This document shows positions 1,873 to 60,056 of a DNA stretch of 64,000 bases, in pieces. A model generated the notes under the pieces. The model worked only from the letters and a program-made list of their open reading frames with translations. It was not told the origin of the DNA and ran no database searches. The DNA is taken from contig NZ_VSLG01000015.1 of NCBI RefSeq assembly GCF_008919445.1, positions 1 through 64,000 on the forward strand, read 5' to 3'. The translations under genes and the position numbers were made by a program. This stretch comes from Serinicoccus kebangsaanensis. Its GTDB lineage: Bacteria > Actinomycetota > Actinomycetes > Actinomycetales > Dermatophilaceae. Position 1 is the stretch's first letter; each line of letters opens with the position of its first letter.

Positions 1873-4347
1873 ATGATCTCCCTGGTCGTCGTCTCGCACA
1901 GCCGACCGCTCGCCCGGGCGGCTGCGGCCCTCGCTGCCGAGATGGGCACCGGCGGCGGACCACGGGTCGAGATCGCCGCCGGGCTGGACGAGGAGACCAC
2001 CGGCACCGACGGGGTGGCCATCGCGGAGGCGATCGGTCGGGCCGACGAGGCGTCCGGGGGAGACGGGGTGCTCGTCCTGCTCGACCTCGGCAGCGCGGTG
2101 CTCTCGGCGGAGATGGCGCTGGAGATGGTGGACCCGGAGGTCGCCGACAGGGTGCGGCTCAGCGCCGCCCCGCTGGTGGAGGGACTGGTCGCGGCCACCG
2201 TCGCCGCCGGCGCGGGAGGCGACCTCGAGCGCTGCGCCGAGGAGGCGCGGAGGGGCACCGAGGCCAAGCGGACGCACCTCGGCGAGCCGGACGGGGCGCA
2301 GCCCTCCGCCCCGAAGGACGACGGGGACCAGCCCTGCGAGTGGGACTGCATCGAGGTCTCGGTCACGATGGAGCACGGCCTGCACGCGCGCCCGGCCGCG
2401 CGGCTGGTGGCCGCCGCGGGCTCGGTGGCGCCGGACACCCGGGTGCGGGTGCGCAACCAGACGACCGGGACCGGGCCGGTGGACGCGTTGAGCCTCTCGT
2501 CGGTGGCCACCCTGGCCGCCCGGCAGGGCCACGTCCTGCGGGTCGAGGCGACCGGCGACCGCGCAGGTGCGGTGCTCCAGGAGATCGAGCACCTGGCCAG
2601 GACCGCCTTCGGTGACGAGCCCGGCCCGGCGCAGCCGCTCGCGGACGTCGAGGTCCCCGCGCCGGCGGTGTCCGACCAGCCGGGGGTGGCAGGGTCCGGG
2701 CTGGAGGCGGCGATGGGTCCGGCGGTGCTGGACCGCACCGTGCCCGAGCCGGAGGAGCGGGAGGCCGACACCCCCCAGGTGGAGCAGGAGCGGCTGGACG
2801 CGGCGGTCCACGAGGCCTTGGCGCGACTCGGGGAGCTGGCGCAGCACGCGCGACGGCACCTCGGGCAGGGGCAGGCGGAGGTCTTCGACGCGCACGCCAC
2901 GTTGGTGCGTGACCCCGAGCTGGCGCGCGACGTGGGCTCCCGGATCCAGCAGGGACAGACCGCGGCCGTGGCCTGGCAGGGTGCCGTCGGGGACGTGGCG
3001 GAGCGCTTCGAGCGGCTGCCGGACCCCTACCTCCAGCAGCGGGCGCAGGACGTGCGCAGCGTCGGGGACCGGGTGATGCGGATCCTGCTCGGGGTCGCCG
3101 AGCCGGAGTCGCTCGGCGAGGGCGTGCTCGTGGTCGACGAGCTCGACCCGGCGATCGCCATCTCGCTGGACGCGGCTGCCGTCCAGGGGGTGGTGACTCG
3201 GCGGGGTGGTGCGCTGGGGCACGGGGTGCTCATCGCCCGGGCCCGCGGTGTGCCGGTGCTGACCGGCGCCGGGGAGCTCCCCGACGTGGCGGCCGGCACG
3301 ATGATCGCCTTCGACGTCCGGGCCGGGAGGCTCGAGATCGACCCGGCCCCCGAGGTCCAGGCGGCTTTCACCGAGATGCTCGACCGCCGCCGGCGCGAGC
3401 GGGAGCACGCCCTGGCCGACACCCACCTGCCGGTGGTGACCCGCGACGGTGCCCGGATCACGGTCAAGGCCAACGTGTCCTCGGTCGCGGTCGCCCGCCT
3501 CGGTGCCGGTCTCGGTGCCGAGGGCTCGGGACTGGTGCGCACCGAGGCGGTCTTCGCACAGTGGCACCGGGCGCCGACGGTGGACCAGCAGGTCGAGGTC
3601 TACACCGCCATCGCCGACGCCTTCGCACCGCACGCCGTGACCATCCGGACCTGGGACGTCGGCGGTGACAAGCCCCTCGACTTCATCCCCATCGCCGAGG
3701 AGGCCAACCCCTTCCTCGGGGTGCGGGGGATCCGCGCCTTCCGGGACGACCCCGCCCTGCTGCTGGACCAGCTCGAGGCCCTCTGCCGGGTGGGTCGGAC
3801 CCACCGGCTGAACGTGCTCTTCCCGATGGTCACCTCGGTGGACGACGTCGACTGGGCCAGGTCCCGGCTGCAGGAGGCGGCCCGCCGGGTCGGCCTCTCC
3901 GCACCCCCGCGCCAGCTCGGGGTCGGCATCATGGTGGAGGTGCCCGCGGTGGCGGTCCGCCTCGCCCGGCTGGCCCGGGGGCTGGACTTCATCTCGATCG
4001 GCAGCAACGACCTCAGCCAGTACACCCTCGCCGCCGAGCGCGGCAACCCGCAGGTGGCGCCGTGGTCGGACGCCCTGGACCCCGCCATCCTGCAGCTGAT
4101 CCGCACCATCTGCGACCGTGCGCCAGAGGGAGTCGTCGTCAGCCTGTGCGGGGAGCTGACCAGCGACCCCGACGTCGCCGGGCTCCTGGTCGGGCTTGGC
4201 GTGCGGGAGCTGAGCGCCTCCCCGAGCGCAGTGCCGACGGTCAAGGCGCGACTGCGGGCGGCCTCGCTGCGGGACCTGCAGGACCTCGCCGCCGGAGCGG
4301 TCGCGGCGCGCGACGCCGCGGCCGTGCGGGACCTGCTGCTCACCTGA
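1873..4347 (+). CDS. dhaM: DhaM-HPr-enzyme I triple fusion phosphotransferase
   Basis: This 824-aa protein joins three PTS modules. Residues 1 to about 135 are the DhaM EIIA-type domain with its active His in VVSHSRPLA. Residues about 158-247 are an HPr domain with EHGLHARPAAR around the active His. Residues about 275-824 are enzyme I: a phosphohistidine segment RRGGALGHGVLIAR near 444, the RTWDVGGDKPLDF and LGVRGIR regions, SIGSNDLSQYTLAAERGN, and the acid/base Cys in SLCGELTSDP near 757. All catalytic residues appear present, so the chain should carry phosphate from PEP to DhaL alone. E. coli DhaM has the same order but, from what I know, a truncated enzyme I part. An ATG at 1868 is out of frame. 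The gene converges on the alkB-like gene with a 7-nt gap and no evident terminator. Confidence 0.93.
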   Translation: MISLVVVSHSRPLARAAAALAAEMGTGGGPRVEIAAGLDEETTGTDGVAIAEAIGRADEASGGDGVLVLLDLGSAVLSAEMALEMVDPEVADRVRLSAAPLVEGLVAATVAAGAGGDLERCAEEARRGTEAKRTHLGEPDGAQPSAPKDDGDQPCEWDCIEVSVTMEHGLHARPAARLVAAAGSVAPDTRVRVRNQTTGTGPVDALSLSSVATLAARQGHVLRVEATGDRAGAVLQEIEHLARTAFGDEPGPAQPLADVEVPAPAVSDQPGVAGSGLEAAMGPAVLDRTVPEPEEREADTPQVEQERLDAAVHEALARLGELAQHARRHLGQGQAEVFDAHATLVRDPELARDVGSRIQQGQTAAVAWQGAVGDVAERFERLPDPYLQQRAQDVRSVGDRVMRILLGVAEPESLGEGVLVVDELDPAIAISLDAAAVQGVVTRRGGALGHGVLIARARGVPVLTGAGELPDVAAGTMIAFDVRAGRLEIDPAPEVQAAFTEMLDRRRREREHALADTHLPVVTRDGARITVKANVSSVAVARLGAGLGAEGSGLVRTEAVFAQWHRAPTVDQQVEVYTAIADAFAPHAVTIRTWDVGGDKPLDFIPIAEEANPFLGVRGIRAFRDDPALLLDQLEALCRVGRTHRLNVLFPMVTSVDDVDWARSRLQEAARRVGLSAPPRQLGVGIMVEVPAVAVRLARLARGLDFISIGSNDLSQYTLAAERGNPQVAPWSDALDPAILQLIRTICDRAPEGVVVSLCGELTSDPDVAGLLVGLGVRELSASPSAVPTVKARLRAASLRDLQDLAAGAVAARDAAAVRDLLLT

Positions 4348-5815: not shown

Positions 5816-6598
5816 ATGCCCCGCGCACCCTTCGCCCACCCCTCGGGTGCGCGGCCTCCGGCGATCCCCACCGAGCTGGTGCCGCGGCACGTGGCGATCG
5901 TCATGGACGGCAACGGGCGCTGGGCCAACCAGCGCGGGCTGAAGCGCACCCAGGGGCACGAGGCGGGGGAGGCCTCGCTGCTGGACGTCATCGCCGGCGG
6001 GATCGAGATCGGCGTGAAGTGCATCAGCGCCTACGCCTTCTCGACCGAGAACTGGCGCCGCAGCCCGGACGAGGTGCGTTTCCTCATGGGGTTCAACCGG
6101 GCCGTCATCCACCGTCGCCGCGAGGAGCTCGACTCCTGGGGGGTGCGGGTCGTGTGGTCCGGGCGCCGGCCGCGGCTCTGGAAGTCGGTCATCTCCGAGC
6201 TGGAGTCCGCCGAGCGCCAGACCCGCGACAACGACGTGATCACGCTCAACTTCTGCGTCAACTACGGCGGCCGGGCCGAGCTGGCCGACGCCGTGCGCCG
6301 GATCGCGGACGACGTCAAGTCCGGCCGGCTCGCGCCCCGCGGGGTGGACGAGCGCACGATCGGCCGCTACCTCTACCACCCCGACGTCCCCGACGTGGAC
6401 CTCTTCCTGCGCAGCTCGGGGGAGCAGCGCACCTCCAACTTCCTGCTGTGGCAGAGCGCCTATGCCGAGATGGTCTTCCAGGACGTGCTCTGGCCGGACT
6501 ACGACCGGCGCGACCTGTGGGCGGCGATCGAGCAGTATGCCTCGCGCGACCGCCGCTACGGCGGCGCCGTGGACACCCCCGACCCCACGCGGGAGTGA
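5816..6598 (+). CDS. uppS: Isoprenyl transferase (undecaprenyl/decaprenyl diphosphate synthase family)
   Basis: This cis-prenyltransferase (260 aa) extends allylic diphosphates with isopentenyl diphosphate to make the lipid carrier for cell-wall synthesis. The signature [17 protein letters not shown] near residue 22 includes the catalytic Asp. A later [18 protein letters not shown] motif binds the homoallylic substrate. Chain length cannot be told from sequence. The ATG directly follows the recO stop, so the two are co-translated. The last codons lie inside the left arm of the long palindrome at 6583-6674. Confidence 0.95.
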
Positions 6599-6674
6599 CC
6601 ACGGGATAGCACAACCCTCATCGGCGAACTTCCCGATGAAGGTTGTGCTATGCCGTGGTCACTCCCGGGTGGGG
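6583..6674. repeat. Long palindrome, family A copy 1 (42-nt arms)
   Basis: Arms 6583-6624 and 6633-6674 are inverted copies with only 3 mismatches in 42, around an 8-nt loop. The left arm includes the uppS stop codon. The core ACCACGGGATAGCACAACC recurs in the palindrome at 51329-51392. Both copies sit between convergent genes, which suggests a bidirectional terminator or a dispersed palindromic repeat. No transposase is nearby. Confidence 0.9.
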
Positions 6675-56516: not shown

Positions 56517-56627
56517 GCGTCGACCGGCCGCACGGTCTTGCGTCGACCGGCCGCACGGTCTGCGTCGACCGGCCGCACGGTCTGCGTCGACCGGCCGCAC
56601 GGTCTGCGTCGACCGGCCGCACGGTCT
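56517..56627. repeat. Tandem array of five 22-nt hairpin units
   Basis: Five head-to-tail units begin at 56517, 56540, 56562, 56584 and 56606. All are identical, and the first has one extra T. Each starts GCGTCGACC and ends CACGGTCT, and contains GACCG ... CGGTC, a 5-bp stem with a 6-nt loop. The array fills the gap between the convergent VIT1 gene (stop 2 nt before) and the MBL gene (stop 2 nt after). There are no spacers, so it is not CRISPR. Confidence 0.95.
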
Positions 56628-56629
56628 GC

Positions 56630-58791
<2,162 letters not shown>

Positions 58792-58830
58792 GGGACAGGC
58801 GGATGGTCTGCGCGCGGTTTCGTCATCTCT

Positions 58831-58878
58831 GAGCCGGTTCGTCATCTGAGAGCCTCCTCGAGCAGGCTCTGCAGTGAC
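58831..58878 (+). repeat. 48-nt repeat, left copy flanking the DUF559 gene
   Basis: It begins GAGCCGGTTCGTCA and contains AGAGCC (10-nt loop) GGCTCT, ending GTGAC. A direct copy lies at 59957-60004, 1126 bp away, with about seven differences. A partial third copy (TTTCGTCATCTCTGAG) precedes it at 58818-58833. It follows the guaB1 stop by 39 nt and may also terminate guaB1 transcription. Confidence 0.85.
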
Positions 58879-58901
58879 ATGGCGGCTCGAAGACGTCTCG
58901 C

Positions 58902-59858
58902 TCAGGCGGGCCGACCGCTCGCGATCAACGTCGGCCTCGCCCCGCGGGCTGCTTGACGCACGATCGCGTCGACCGCCGAGGAGTGCTCCAGGTCCGACCA
59001 CGCGACACGACCCACGCCATATCCCAAGGCGCGGATCTGGTCCTCGCGTCGCTTCTCCGCCGCCAGCGCCGCCGCACCGTCGAGACCGTCGTACTTGACC
59101 TTGCCGTCGAACTCCAGCACGACACCGATCTCGGGCAGGTAGAAATCGACCCGTGCTAGGACTCGCCCGTCGTGCACGATGCGGTACTGCGGGATCGCCG
59201 TCAGCCCGAGGTCGGCCAGGATCAACCGCAGGAGCGTCTCGCCGGGTGACTCGCTGCTGGCGTCAGCGGAGCGGATCGCCGACCGTGCGACCCCGACGCC
59301 GGGCACGTGCGCGTGCCGCACCAGCGCCGCGTCGAGCTGGGCCCCGGTGACCAGCTGCCGGTGGAGTGCAGCGTCCGCCGCCACGACGCAGGAGCGCATG
59401 GGCGCGACCAGGCCCATTCCGACGACGGCTGTGGCGACGTCGACCCGTCTCGGGTCGGCGTCGGCGTGCACGTGCTCCGCACCCGGGAAGGTGTGGACGG
59501 TGTAGCTCTCGTGCCGACGCGTGCTTCCCTTGGCGCTCGCATGGCAGAGGTGCACCCGCTCCAGGCCATCGTTCAGGACGGGCAGCCGCCACAGCAGGGC
59601 GGCCGTCGTATGGCTCGCGGCCCACCCGTCCGGGTGCCGGCGGAGCAGAGCGCGAGCGCGGAGGAGGTGTCTGTCCGCCAGGTGGTGGTGGCCCAGGAGC
59701 ACCGAGGTCTGGACATAGGCTCCACGGGCCACCCTGGTCAGGACCCTTCGCTGCACGAGGCGACGAAGCACCTCGCGGTTGAAGCCCAGAGCCGAGGCCT
59801 CCTGGGAGGTGACGACGTGGTGATGCGTGGTGAGGAACGCCGCGAGCTCGGGATGCAT
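58902..59858 (-). CDS. AbiEi-like DNA-binding plus DUF559 nuclease-fold protein
   Basis: This 318-aa protein has an N-terminal winged-helix region like the AbiEi antitoxin domain (VTSQEASALGFNREVLRRLV, VARGAYVQ). Its C-terminal DUF559/Vsr-like PD-(D/E)xK fold has RVDFYLPEIGVVLEFDGKVK near 245-265 (Asp and Glu-x-Asp-Gly-Lys) and EKRREDQIRALGYGV. It may be a small endonuclease or a regulator. No AbiEii toxin is adjacent, so a classic type IV toxin-antitoxin pair is not supported. Base composition is a little lower in GC than the neighbours. It is bracketed by 48-nt direct repeats, suggesting a mobile or exchanged cassette. Confidence 0.8.
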   Translation of the reverse strand: MHPELAAFLTTHHHVVTSQEASALGFNREVLRRLVQRRVLTRVARGAYVQTSVLLGHHHLADRHLLRARALLRRHPDGWAASHTTAALLWRLPVLNDGLERVHLCHASAKGSTRRHESYTVHTFPGAEHVHADADPRRVDVATAVVGMGLVAPMRSCVVAADAALHRQLVTGAQLDAALVRHAHVPGVGVARSAIRSADASSESPGETLLRLILADLGLTAIPQYRIVHDGRVLARVDFYLPEIGVVLEFDGKVKYDGLDGAAALAAEKRREDQIRALGYGVGRVAWSDLEHSSAVDAIVRQAARGARPTLIASGRPA

Positions 59859-59956
59859 GACTCAACGCTGACCCATCGCACGCGAGCGCGGGGCGTCTGG
59901 AGGACATCTGTGGATAACTGTCCGGCGAGCCCGGTCGGTGCCACCGCCAGCACTTC

Positions 59957-60004
59957 GAGCCGGTTCGTCACCCGAGAGCCCCCTCGAACAGGCTCTCGAG
60001 TGAC
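59957..60004 (+). repeat. 48-nt repeat, right copy flanking the DUF559 gene
   Basis: This copy matches 58831-58878 in the same orientation: GAGCCGGTTCGTCA is identical, the AGAGCC/GGCTCT stem is kept, and the loop differs at three positions. It ends 52 nt before the ppgK stop codon and about 100 nt upstream of the DUF559 gene start. Conserved stem with altered loop suggests selection for the hairpin. Confidence 0.85.
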
Positions 60005-60056
60005 GTCGAGGCGTGCAGAGGCGGAGCGAGGACGGCTGAGGGTCCGCGGCGCGGGG

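Follow-up and report, generated by a model that had tools for sequence, protein, structure and literature searches.

A gene for an AbiEi/Vsr-fold protein bracketed by its own palindromes: a possible REPIN-RAYT-like partnership in Serinicoccus and other Actinobacteria

Does a gene that lies precisely between two copies of a repeat belong with that repeat, and might its protein act on it? The question is raised by a locus in the window analysed here, a 64,000-nt stretch of the genome of Serinicoccus kebangsaanensis (NZ_VSLG01000015.1; the genome is G000 below). A first-pass annotation, made from the letters alone, had described an AbiEi/DUF559 gene framed by 48-nt direct repeats with a conserved hairpin. 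The two copies do stand in one orientation, at 58831 and 59957, with the gene precisely between them; the hairpin is present too, but the full unit is longer, a 66-nt imperfect palindrome that we call R1. The gene and its two palindromes lie between an IMP dehydrogenase gene, presumably guaB1, and a ROK family gene that we take to be ppgK:

57325..58791, + strand: left host gene, IMP dehydrogenase/GMP reductase with CBS domains, guaB1-like
58827..58892, + strand: R1 palindrome downstream of the gene, 66 nt, imperfect; covariance model score 80.6 bits
58902..59858, - strand: gene for a 318-aa protein with an AbiEi-type module (residues ~1-199) and a Vsr/homing-endonuclease-fold domain (~200-310) with PD-(D/E)xK-like conserved residues
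59859..59952, no strand: 94-bp gap from the start codon to the upstream palindrome, presumed promoter
59953..60018, + strand: R1 palindrome upstream of the gene, 66 nt; 80.0 bits
60057..60815, - strand: right host gene, ROK family, ppgK-like

The sequence GAGCCGGTTCGTCA occurs at 58831 and 59957 in identical orientation, the copies are 81% identical over 63 nt, and a single open reading frame (58902-59858, - strand) lies exactly between the palindromes. Chance does not account for the matched flanks: when 950-bp intervals were drawn at random from the window, none of 95 had flanks sharing a repeat at the score reached here. An exact 14-mer of R1 occurs six times in the 3.5-Mb genome and its reversed pattern not once. 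As single strands, both window palindromes fold better than shuffled sequence (z -3.7 and -3.3), and some copies elsewhere in the genome are better paired, among them one on contig C24 with nearly complete pairing (z -8.0). Covariation of R1 base pairs gave only a weak signal from six copies, and no known RNA family reached its gathering score in six loci. A separate repeat, the 15-mer GACCGGCCGCACGGT, occurs five times exactly at 56522-56625 of the window, spaced 22-23 bp; six copies lie beside a distant paralog of the gene (L014), and it is also found near guaB1 in the relatives G007 (L044) and G022 (L043).

The AbiEi half of the first-pass name holds, since the Pfam model AbiEi_4 matches the N-terminus of the window protein above its cut-off. 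For the DUF559 half the picture is mixed: at E<=0.01, across 37 aligned family members, AbiEi_4 matches 29, DUF559 17 and MTES_1575 14, and the window protein itself, whose predicted fold is of Vsr type, has no match to DUF559 or MTES_1575. The structure predicted from 37 sequences has a mean pLDDT of 94 and a pTM of 0.90. In this predicted fold, residues 1-199 match the AbiEi antitoxin of Streptococcus agalactiae (6y8q; Z 10.1, rmsd 6.2, 181 residues aligned), and residues ~200-308 match the catalytic domain of the homing endonuclease I-Bth0305I (Z 10.6, rmsd 3.4, 96 aligned), mitoribosomal proteins that we take to be RAP proteins (Z 10.0), Vsr (Z 9.6) and Tn7 TnsA (Z 6.3). These values rank only the matches listed, those within 1 of each other count as tied, and the TnsA value may mean no more than a common arrangement; the predicted fold was also compared by Foldseek. 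D238, E249, D251 and G252 do not vary in either alignment (22 and 37 homologs), and neither does K255 in the 22. A predicted Vsr-type fold would allow cutting but does not prove it, because RAP-type proteins match as well. By sequence, the best match among solved homologs had an E value of 0.17, and library models label these homologs antitoxins or proteins of unknown function.

Bracketing is not confined to this locus. We compared the 350 bp to the left of each match with the 350 bp to the right, counting a shared direct or inverted repeat with a score of at least 40, for 91 homologs from 35 genomes (four in S. kebangsaanensis itself); these are all the protein-search matches listed, without the gene remnant of G022 and with a broken G003 gene, listed in two rows, counted once. 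Both flanks have a repeat in common in 61 of the 91 homologs, as against none of 30 guaB1 genes from the same genomes and none of the 95 random intervals; the other 30 homologs have no shared flank repeat at this threshold. Some of the shared repeats may be of other kinds, L180 (score 419) being a long direct duplication. Outside the genus, nine of 12 homologs have a shared flank repeat. Both flanks are palindromic in 35 of the 91 homologs and in no guaB1 gene or random interval, whereas a palindrome on at least one side (70 of 91 homologs, 11 of 30 guaB1 genes, 13 of 95 intervals) is not telling. A second sample, drawn from a scan of 84,980 species with a single genome apiece, comprised the best 80 of 180 relatives, with 77 testable loci; 41 of these share a flank repeat and 36 do not, and among 152 control intervals taken from those loci none does. 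The two samples overlap, several Serinicoccus, Ornithinimicrobium, Nostocoides and Ornithinicoccus loci being in both. Bracketed genes occur in Janibacter, Kribbella, Phycicoccus, Cellulomonas, Pseudonocardia, Microlunatus, Rhodococcus, Skermania, Antrihabitans and Cryobacterium, among others; Rhodococcus and Nocardia loci are mostly without a shared flank repeat. The window protein found no match among 72,556 plasmid records. Nine homologs are present in the genome of S. kebangsaanensis, and six each in G007 and G031 at E<=1e-20. The three nearest paralogs of its own genome (L008, L009 and L010) each have palindromes of their own, and some of five more distant ones have unrelated repeats or none.

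A covariance model built from the six R1 copies with the 14-mer found 16 distinct places in the S. kebangsaanensis genome (32 strand-wise matches, with 150 of 2257 first-look candidates scored) and matches at E<=0.001 in 13 of the 58 genomes searched. Of the 31 genus genomes, ten show at least nine matches, G006 and G015 have one each, and 19 have none. At the same E value, the distinct places number 20 in G007, 19 in G022, 15 in G030, 14 in G011, 13 in G012, 11 in G028, 8 in G002, 6 in G004 and 5 in G018. Nine genus genomes encode a homolog at least 53% identical to the window protein (G000, G007, G011, G018, G012, G030, G028, G004 and G002), a close line given that the next protein, in G026, is 51% identical, and G022 retains a deleted remnant of the gene at the guaB1 site. 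The ten R1-rich genomes are exactly the ten with the ortholog or its remnant, and the other 21 have no more than one match. Under independence this coincidence would have a chance of 1 in C(31,10), or about 2e-8, a figure that is overstated because the genomes are related. Nonetheless, the link between gene and R1 goes beyond relatedness: G029, whose guaB1 is 90% identical and which identity places among the carriers, lacks both this ortholog and R1, while the more distant G004 and G002 (guaB1 82 and 81% identical) have both. A DUF559-like gene adjoins the repeat at five loci (L018, L019, L092, L093 and L110) in a test of 60 repeat loci of relatives and 17 of the genome itself, which leaves aside places outside guaB1 in G012, G030 and G028 and a few in G011 and G031. 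The first-pass annotation had thought a self-associated repeat plausible, and had set against it repeats that are common genome-wide and not linked to such genes. R1 is indeed spread over the genome, at 16 places, but it is linked to the gene: in the genus it abounds only where the gene or a remnant of it is present, and the bracketed gene is found at three different loci.

These loci bear on the suggestion, also made at first pass, that the unit could move as a block. We inspected the gap between guaB1 and ppgK in S. kebangsaanensis and 20 relatives. Seven genomes have the unit there with a palindrome on each side (G000, G007, G011, G012, G018, G028 and G030), and in G022 the gene is a remnant with both palindromes kept. 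The gap contains no DUF559-like gene in G029, G004, G002, G017, G027, G026, G003, G025, G016 and G015, that of G026 having one weak solo palindrome. G004 and G002 carry the ortholog elsewhere, and there it is again bracketed: in L092 (G004) by palindromes at 2001-2066 and 3177-3242 around a gene at 2137-3096, and in L093 (G002) by palindromes at 1999-2064 and 3222-3286 around a gene at 2179-3132. In a blastn comparison, similarity between these two loci is confined to the gene. In G002 the unit is flanked by M24 peptidase and adenylate kinase genes and, at its other end, by genes for ribosomal proteins S13 and S11, and since these usually form one ribosomal cluster, the unit interrupts that cluster. 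Seven genomes carry the unit at guaB1-ppgK and an eighth keeps its remnant, G029, G004 and G002 lack it there, and the last two have it at other sites, all of which strongly suggests that the unit could move as a block.

A selfish homing-type nuclease would produce part of this pattern. The protein would cut the chromosome at or near its target and be copied in by repair, with the palindromes as recognition or protection sites. I-Bth0305I is the best match by Z for the nuclease domain among those listed (10.6, tied with the others within 1), and one intergenic place is filled in many relatives and empty in others, as homing would have it. However, solo palindromes lie at many unrelated places, unlike one cognate site, and the unit itself occurs at different loci, so that we regard homing as distinctly unlikely. 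The guaB1-ppgK gap is perhaps a recurrent landing site, since in G014 (on the other strand), G001 and G013 it contains diverged DUF559-like members of the family. Two observations made by eye concern the same gap. That of G015 contains a different palindromic sequence (the gap loci of these relatives are L080, L081, L091 and L090), and at L075, L076 and L078 (guaB1 in G012, G028 and G018) the R1 palindromes are lengthened by iterated ~19-nt units and look as if they had grown by unit addition.

The first-pass annotation had not foreseen that R1 is one of many private palindrome families. To keep plain synteny out of the comparison, we set each gene's upstream flank against the downstream flanks of other genes. 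No palindrome is shared in any of 108 pairs of paralogs from the same genome. Between genomes, sharing depends on protein identity: 46 of 79 pairs at 0.6 or above share a palindrome, as do 20 of 925 at 0.4-0.6 and nine of 2893 below 0.4, all of these pairs being mutually related and not independent. The palindrome sequence thus follows the protein, not the genome. This result largely refutes the possibility that the palindromes are structural or regulatory hairpins, such as bidirectional terminators or insulators, that bear no particular relation to the protein. Such hairpins would fit the strong folding and the mostly intergenic positions, but the guaB1 genes of the same genomes have no matched flanks (0 of 30), and we consider this explanation exceedingly improbable. 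Identity of the wHTH domain predicts palindrome sharing (AUC 0.87) no better than identity of the other domains (0.91 and 0.90).

Two further families, R2 (the L008 type) and R3 (the L009 type), were followed in a sample of 38 genomes. R2 occupies 10, 12 and 6 places in the gene carriers G000, G007 and G022, three in G012, one each in G001, G005 and G015, and none in the other 31; the R2 sample excludes the gene carriers G029 and G030. R3 occupies 27 and 28 places in its two gene carriers, G000 and G011, 13 in G022, three in G007, one in G012 and none in the other 33. Both models were made from gene-flanking copies, which makes the scores favour those genomes. No cognate gene is among the hits at E<=1e-20 in G022, with its 13 R3 places, or in G012, with its three R2 places, and gene loss could explain both. 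R2 shows compensatory pairing, in which changes on both sides keep the pairs (10 cells, reached in none of 500 shuffles). The palindromes of R1-R3 are 66-73 bp long, and each family has about 5-28 places in genomes with the gene.

Other copies stand alone. Two solo copies of R3 lie in the window itself, and the gene that R3 brackets in this genome is a paralog at G000:C36:121170:

6593..6665, - strand: solo R3 palindrome; R3 brackets paralog L009 elsewhere in the genome
51325..51397, - strand: solo R3 palindrome; R3 brackets paralog L009 elsewhere in the genome

By a simple test of open reading frames the solos are mostly intergenic, with two of 18 R3 solos and five of 54 R1 solos inside a coding-like frame, compared with 342 and 332, respectively, of 400 random window places. 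Their presence differs among relatives. Four of nine joined sites were searched for empty counterparts, those of L241 and L247 giving alignments too poor to judge; at the R3 site L249 the element is present in G000 and G011, and a clean alignment shows a flush empty site in G012, G028 and G029, while the R3 site L240 is occupied in G000 and G012, with the element absent from G028 and G011. No target-site duplication was detected at 20 R3 solos in G000, where matched flanks are no better than permuted ones (p 0.88), and no excision product was seen. The same 20 solos have ~15 bp that are C-rich to the left and G-rich to the right, with no pairwise complementarity beyond composition. This composition gave the idea that R3 inserts into the loops of terminator hairpins, which we rejected because pairing across 25 sites is no better than permuted (p 0.29).

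An unrelated transposase might move the palindromes, the gene being a passenger caught between two copies. Palindrome pairs without such a gene accord with this: four of R3 (L242, L256, L257 and L258) and two of R1 (L094 and L095), in all six of which a search for a DUF559-like gene, run with two positive controls, found none. L242 (contig C24 of G000) frames an alcohol dehydrogenase-like gene and L256 (G011) a methyltransferase-like gene; judged by eye from the neighbours, L242 and L258 (G011) seem to have one copy in common and another private to each genome. A passenger, however, would not explain why palindromes are common to close homologs and never to paralogs of the same genome, or why R1 abundance tracks the gene in the genus. 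In addition, the Y1 transposase model Y1_Tnp (PF01797), the sole transposase family searched genome-wide, matches none of 38 genomes, including that of S. kebangsaanensis, and five of 14 control genomes. We therefore consider a passenger gene very improbable.

The AbiEi-type module suggests another alternative, that the protein is a regulator only. The flanking palindromes would be autoregulatory operators and the scattered ones a regulon, and the Vsr-type domain would be vestigial or have another role. AbiEi binds palindromes in its own promoter, as shown by EMSA (PMC11062541). Across a tree of 90 proteins, with start codons set by rule, the distance from the upstream palindrome to the start codon is mostly 50-150 bp, as might be expected of an operator. 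Against this, a palindrome is also present downstream, where it mostly starts within ~100 bp past the stop codon or overlaps it; D238, E249 and D251 are invariant in the 22 and the 37 homologs and K255 in the 22; and solo copies come and go among relatives. Regulation alone is thus an unlikely explanation. The AbiE type IV toxin-antitoxin system has the same AbiEi-type N-terminal module; it differs from the locus described here, where no gene for an AbiEii nucleotidyltransferase toxin adjoins (the neighbours encode IMPDH and a ROK kinase), the protein has an additional C-terminal Vsr-fold domain, and palindromes lie on both sides and scattered.

Other known elements resemble the unit in part. 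MITEs are miniature inverted-repeat elements with a parent transposon; like them, the solos are short palindromes present or absent among relatives, but there is no target-site duplication at the 20 R3 solos, and we know of no transposase encoded by the gene-carrying form. Vsr and I-Bth0305I have the C-terminal fold in common with the window protein, as far as the prediction goes, and the DUF559 and MTES_1575 models match 17 and 14, respectively, of the 37 family members. Here, unlike in Vsr-like nucleases, that domain is joined to an AbiEi module, cognate palindromes bracket the gene, and an intact host gene stands on either side. One DUF559 study concerns a Vsr-like protein of Caulobacter (PMC12907096). 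In REPIN-RAYT systems (PMC3116915 and PMC3733652), a single gene has adjoining palindromes, solo copies are extragenic, each protein has its own repeat class, and the closest relatives of a protein are in other genomes, all of which apply here. The enzyme differs, being a Y1/HUH transposase there and an AbiEi plus Vsr-fold protein here, and REPs are 20-40 bp long, as against 66-73 bp for R1-R3; by eye, we recognised neither of the end tags of REPIN-RAYT, GTAG or CGTC, in R1, R2 or R3. TIRtrons/TIRYT, as outlined in PMC3733652, likewise have a gene framed by long inverted repeats, some in repeated families, but the gene is for a RAYT-like tyrosine transposase, which the Y1 search did not find in the 38 genomes. 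Since both the RAYT enzyme and the partner toxin of AbiE are missing, we assign the locus to neither group, while holding that it probably works as RAYT does.

Because the palindromes track the protein, and because the predicted fold joins an AbiEi-type module to a Vsr-type domain, we infer that the protein acts on the palindrome, as the first-pass annotation had suggested it might. We propose a unit made up of a palindrome, a putative promoter, a nuclease-like gene and a second palindrome. The protein would recognise its own private palindrome, binding it and probably nicking or cutting at or beside it. Repair or replication of the cut ends would then generate further palindromes and, at times, a further copy of the unit, such that palindromes would be kept and spread as small non-autonomous elements and the whole bracketed unit would spread more rarely. 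On balance, we think it probable that this is a partnership of the REPIN-RAYT kind with an unrelated enzyme, in which an AbiEi module and a Vsr-fold nuclease domain work on the protein's own palindrome. To the wider proposal we give about an even chance: that AbiEi-Vsr fusions mobilise private palindromes of ~60-90 bp across Actinobacteria as a PD-(D/E)xK-type counterpart of REPIN-RAYT, and that many or most actinobacterial AbiEi/DUF559 genes are such units, not toxin-antitoxin or repair genes.

By title and the start of the abstract, we found no description of AbiEi-DUF559 proteins paired with private palindromes in the open-access literature, and within the literature so searched the pairing is new. 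Through bracketing, each gene points to a testable substrate in the palindrome of its own. Should the protein turn out to move or process it, another fold, which to our knowledge has not been associated with such work, would be added to the few enzymes that underlie dispersed palindromes in bacteria. Bracketing also suggests where the missing enzymes of other palindromic repeats could be sought, such as those of the CGTC REPs, which "apparently lack a dedicated transposase" in the words of PMC3733652.
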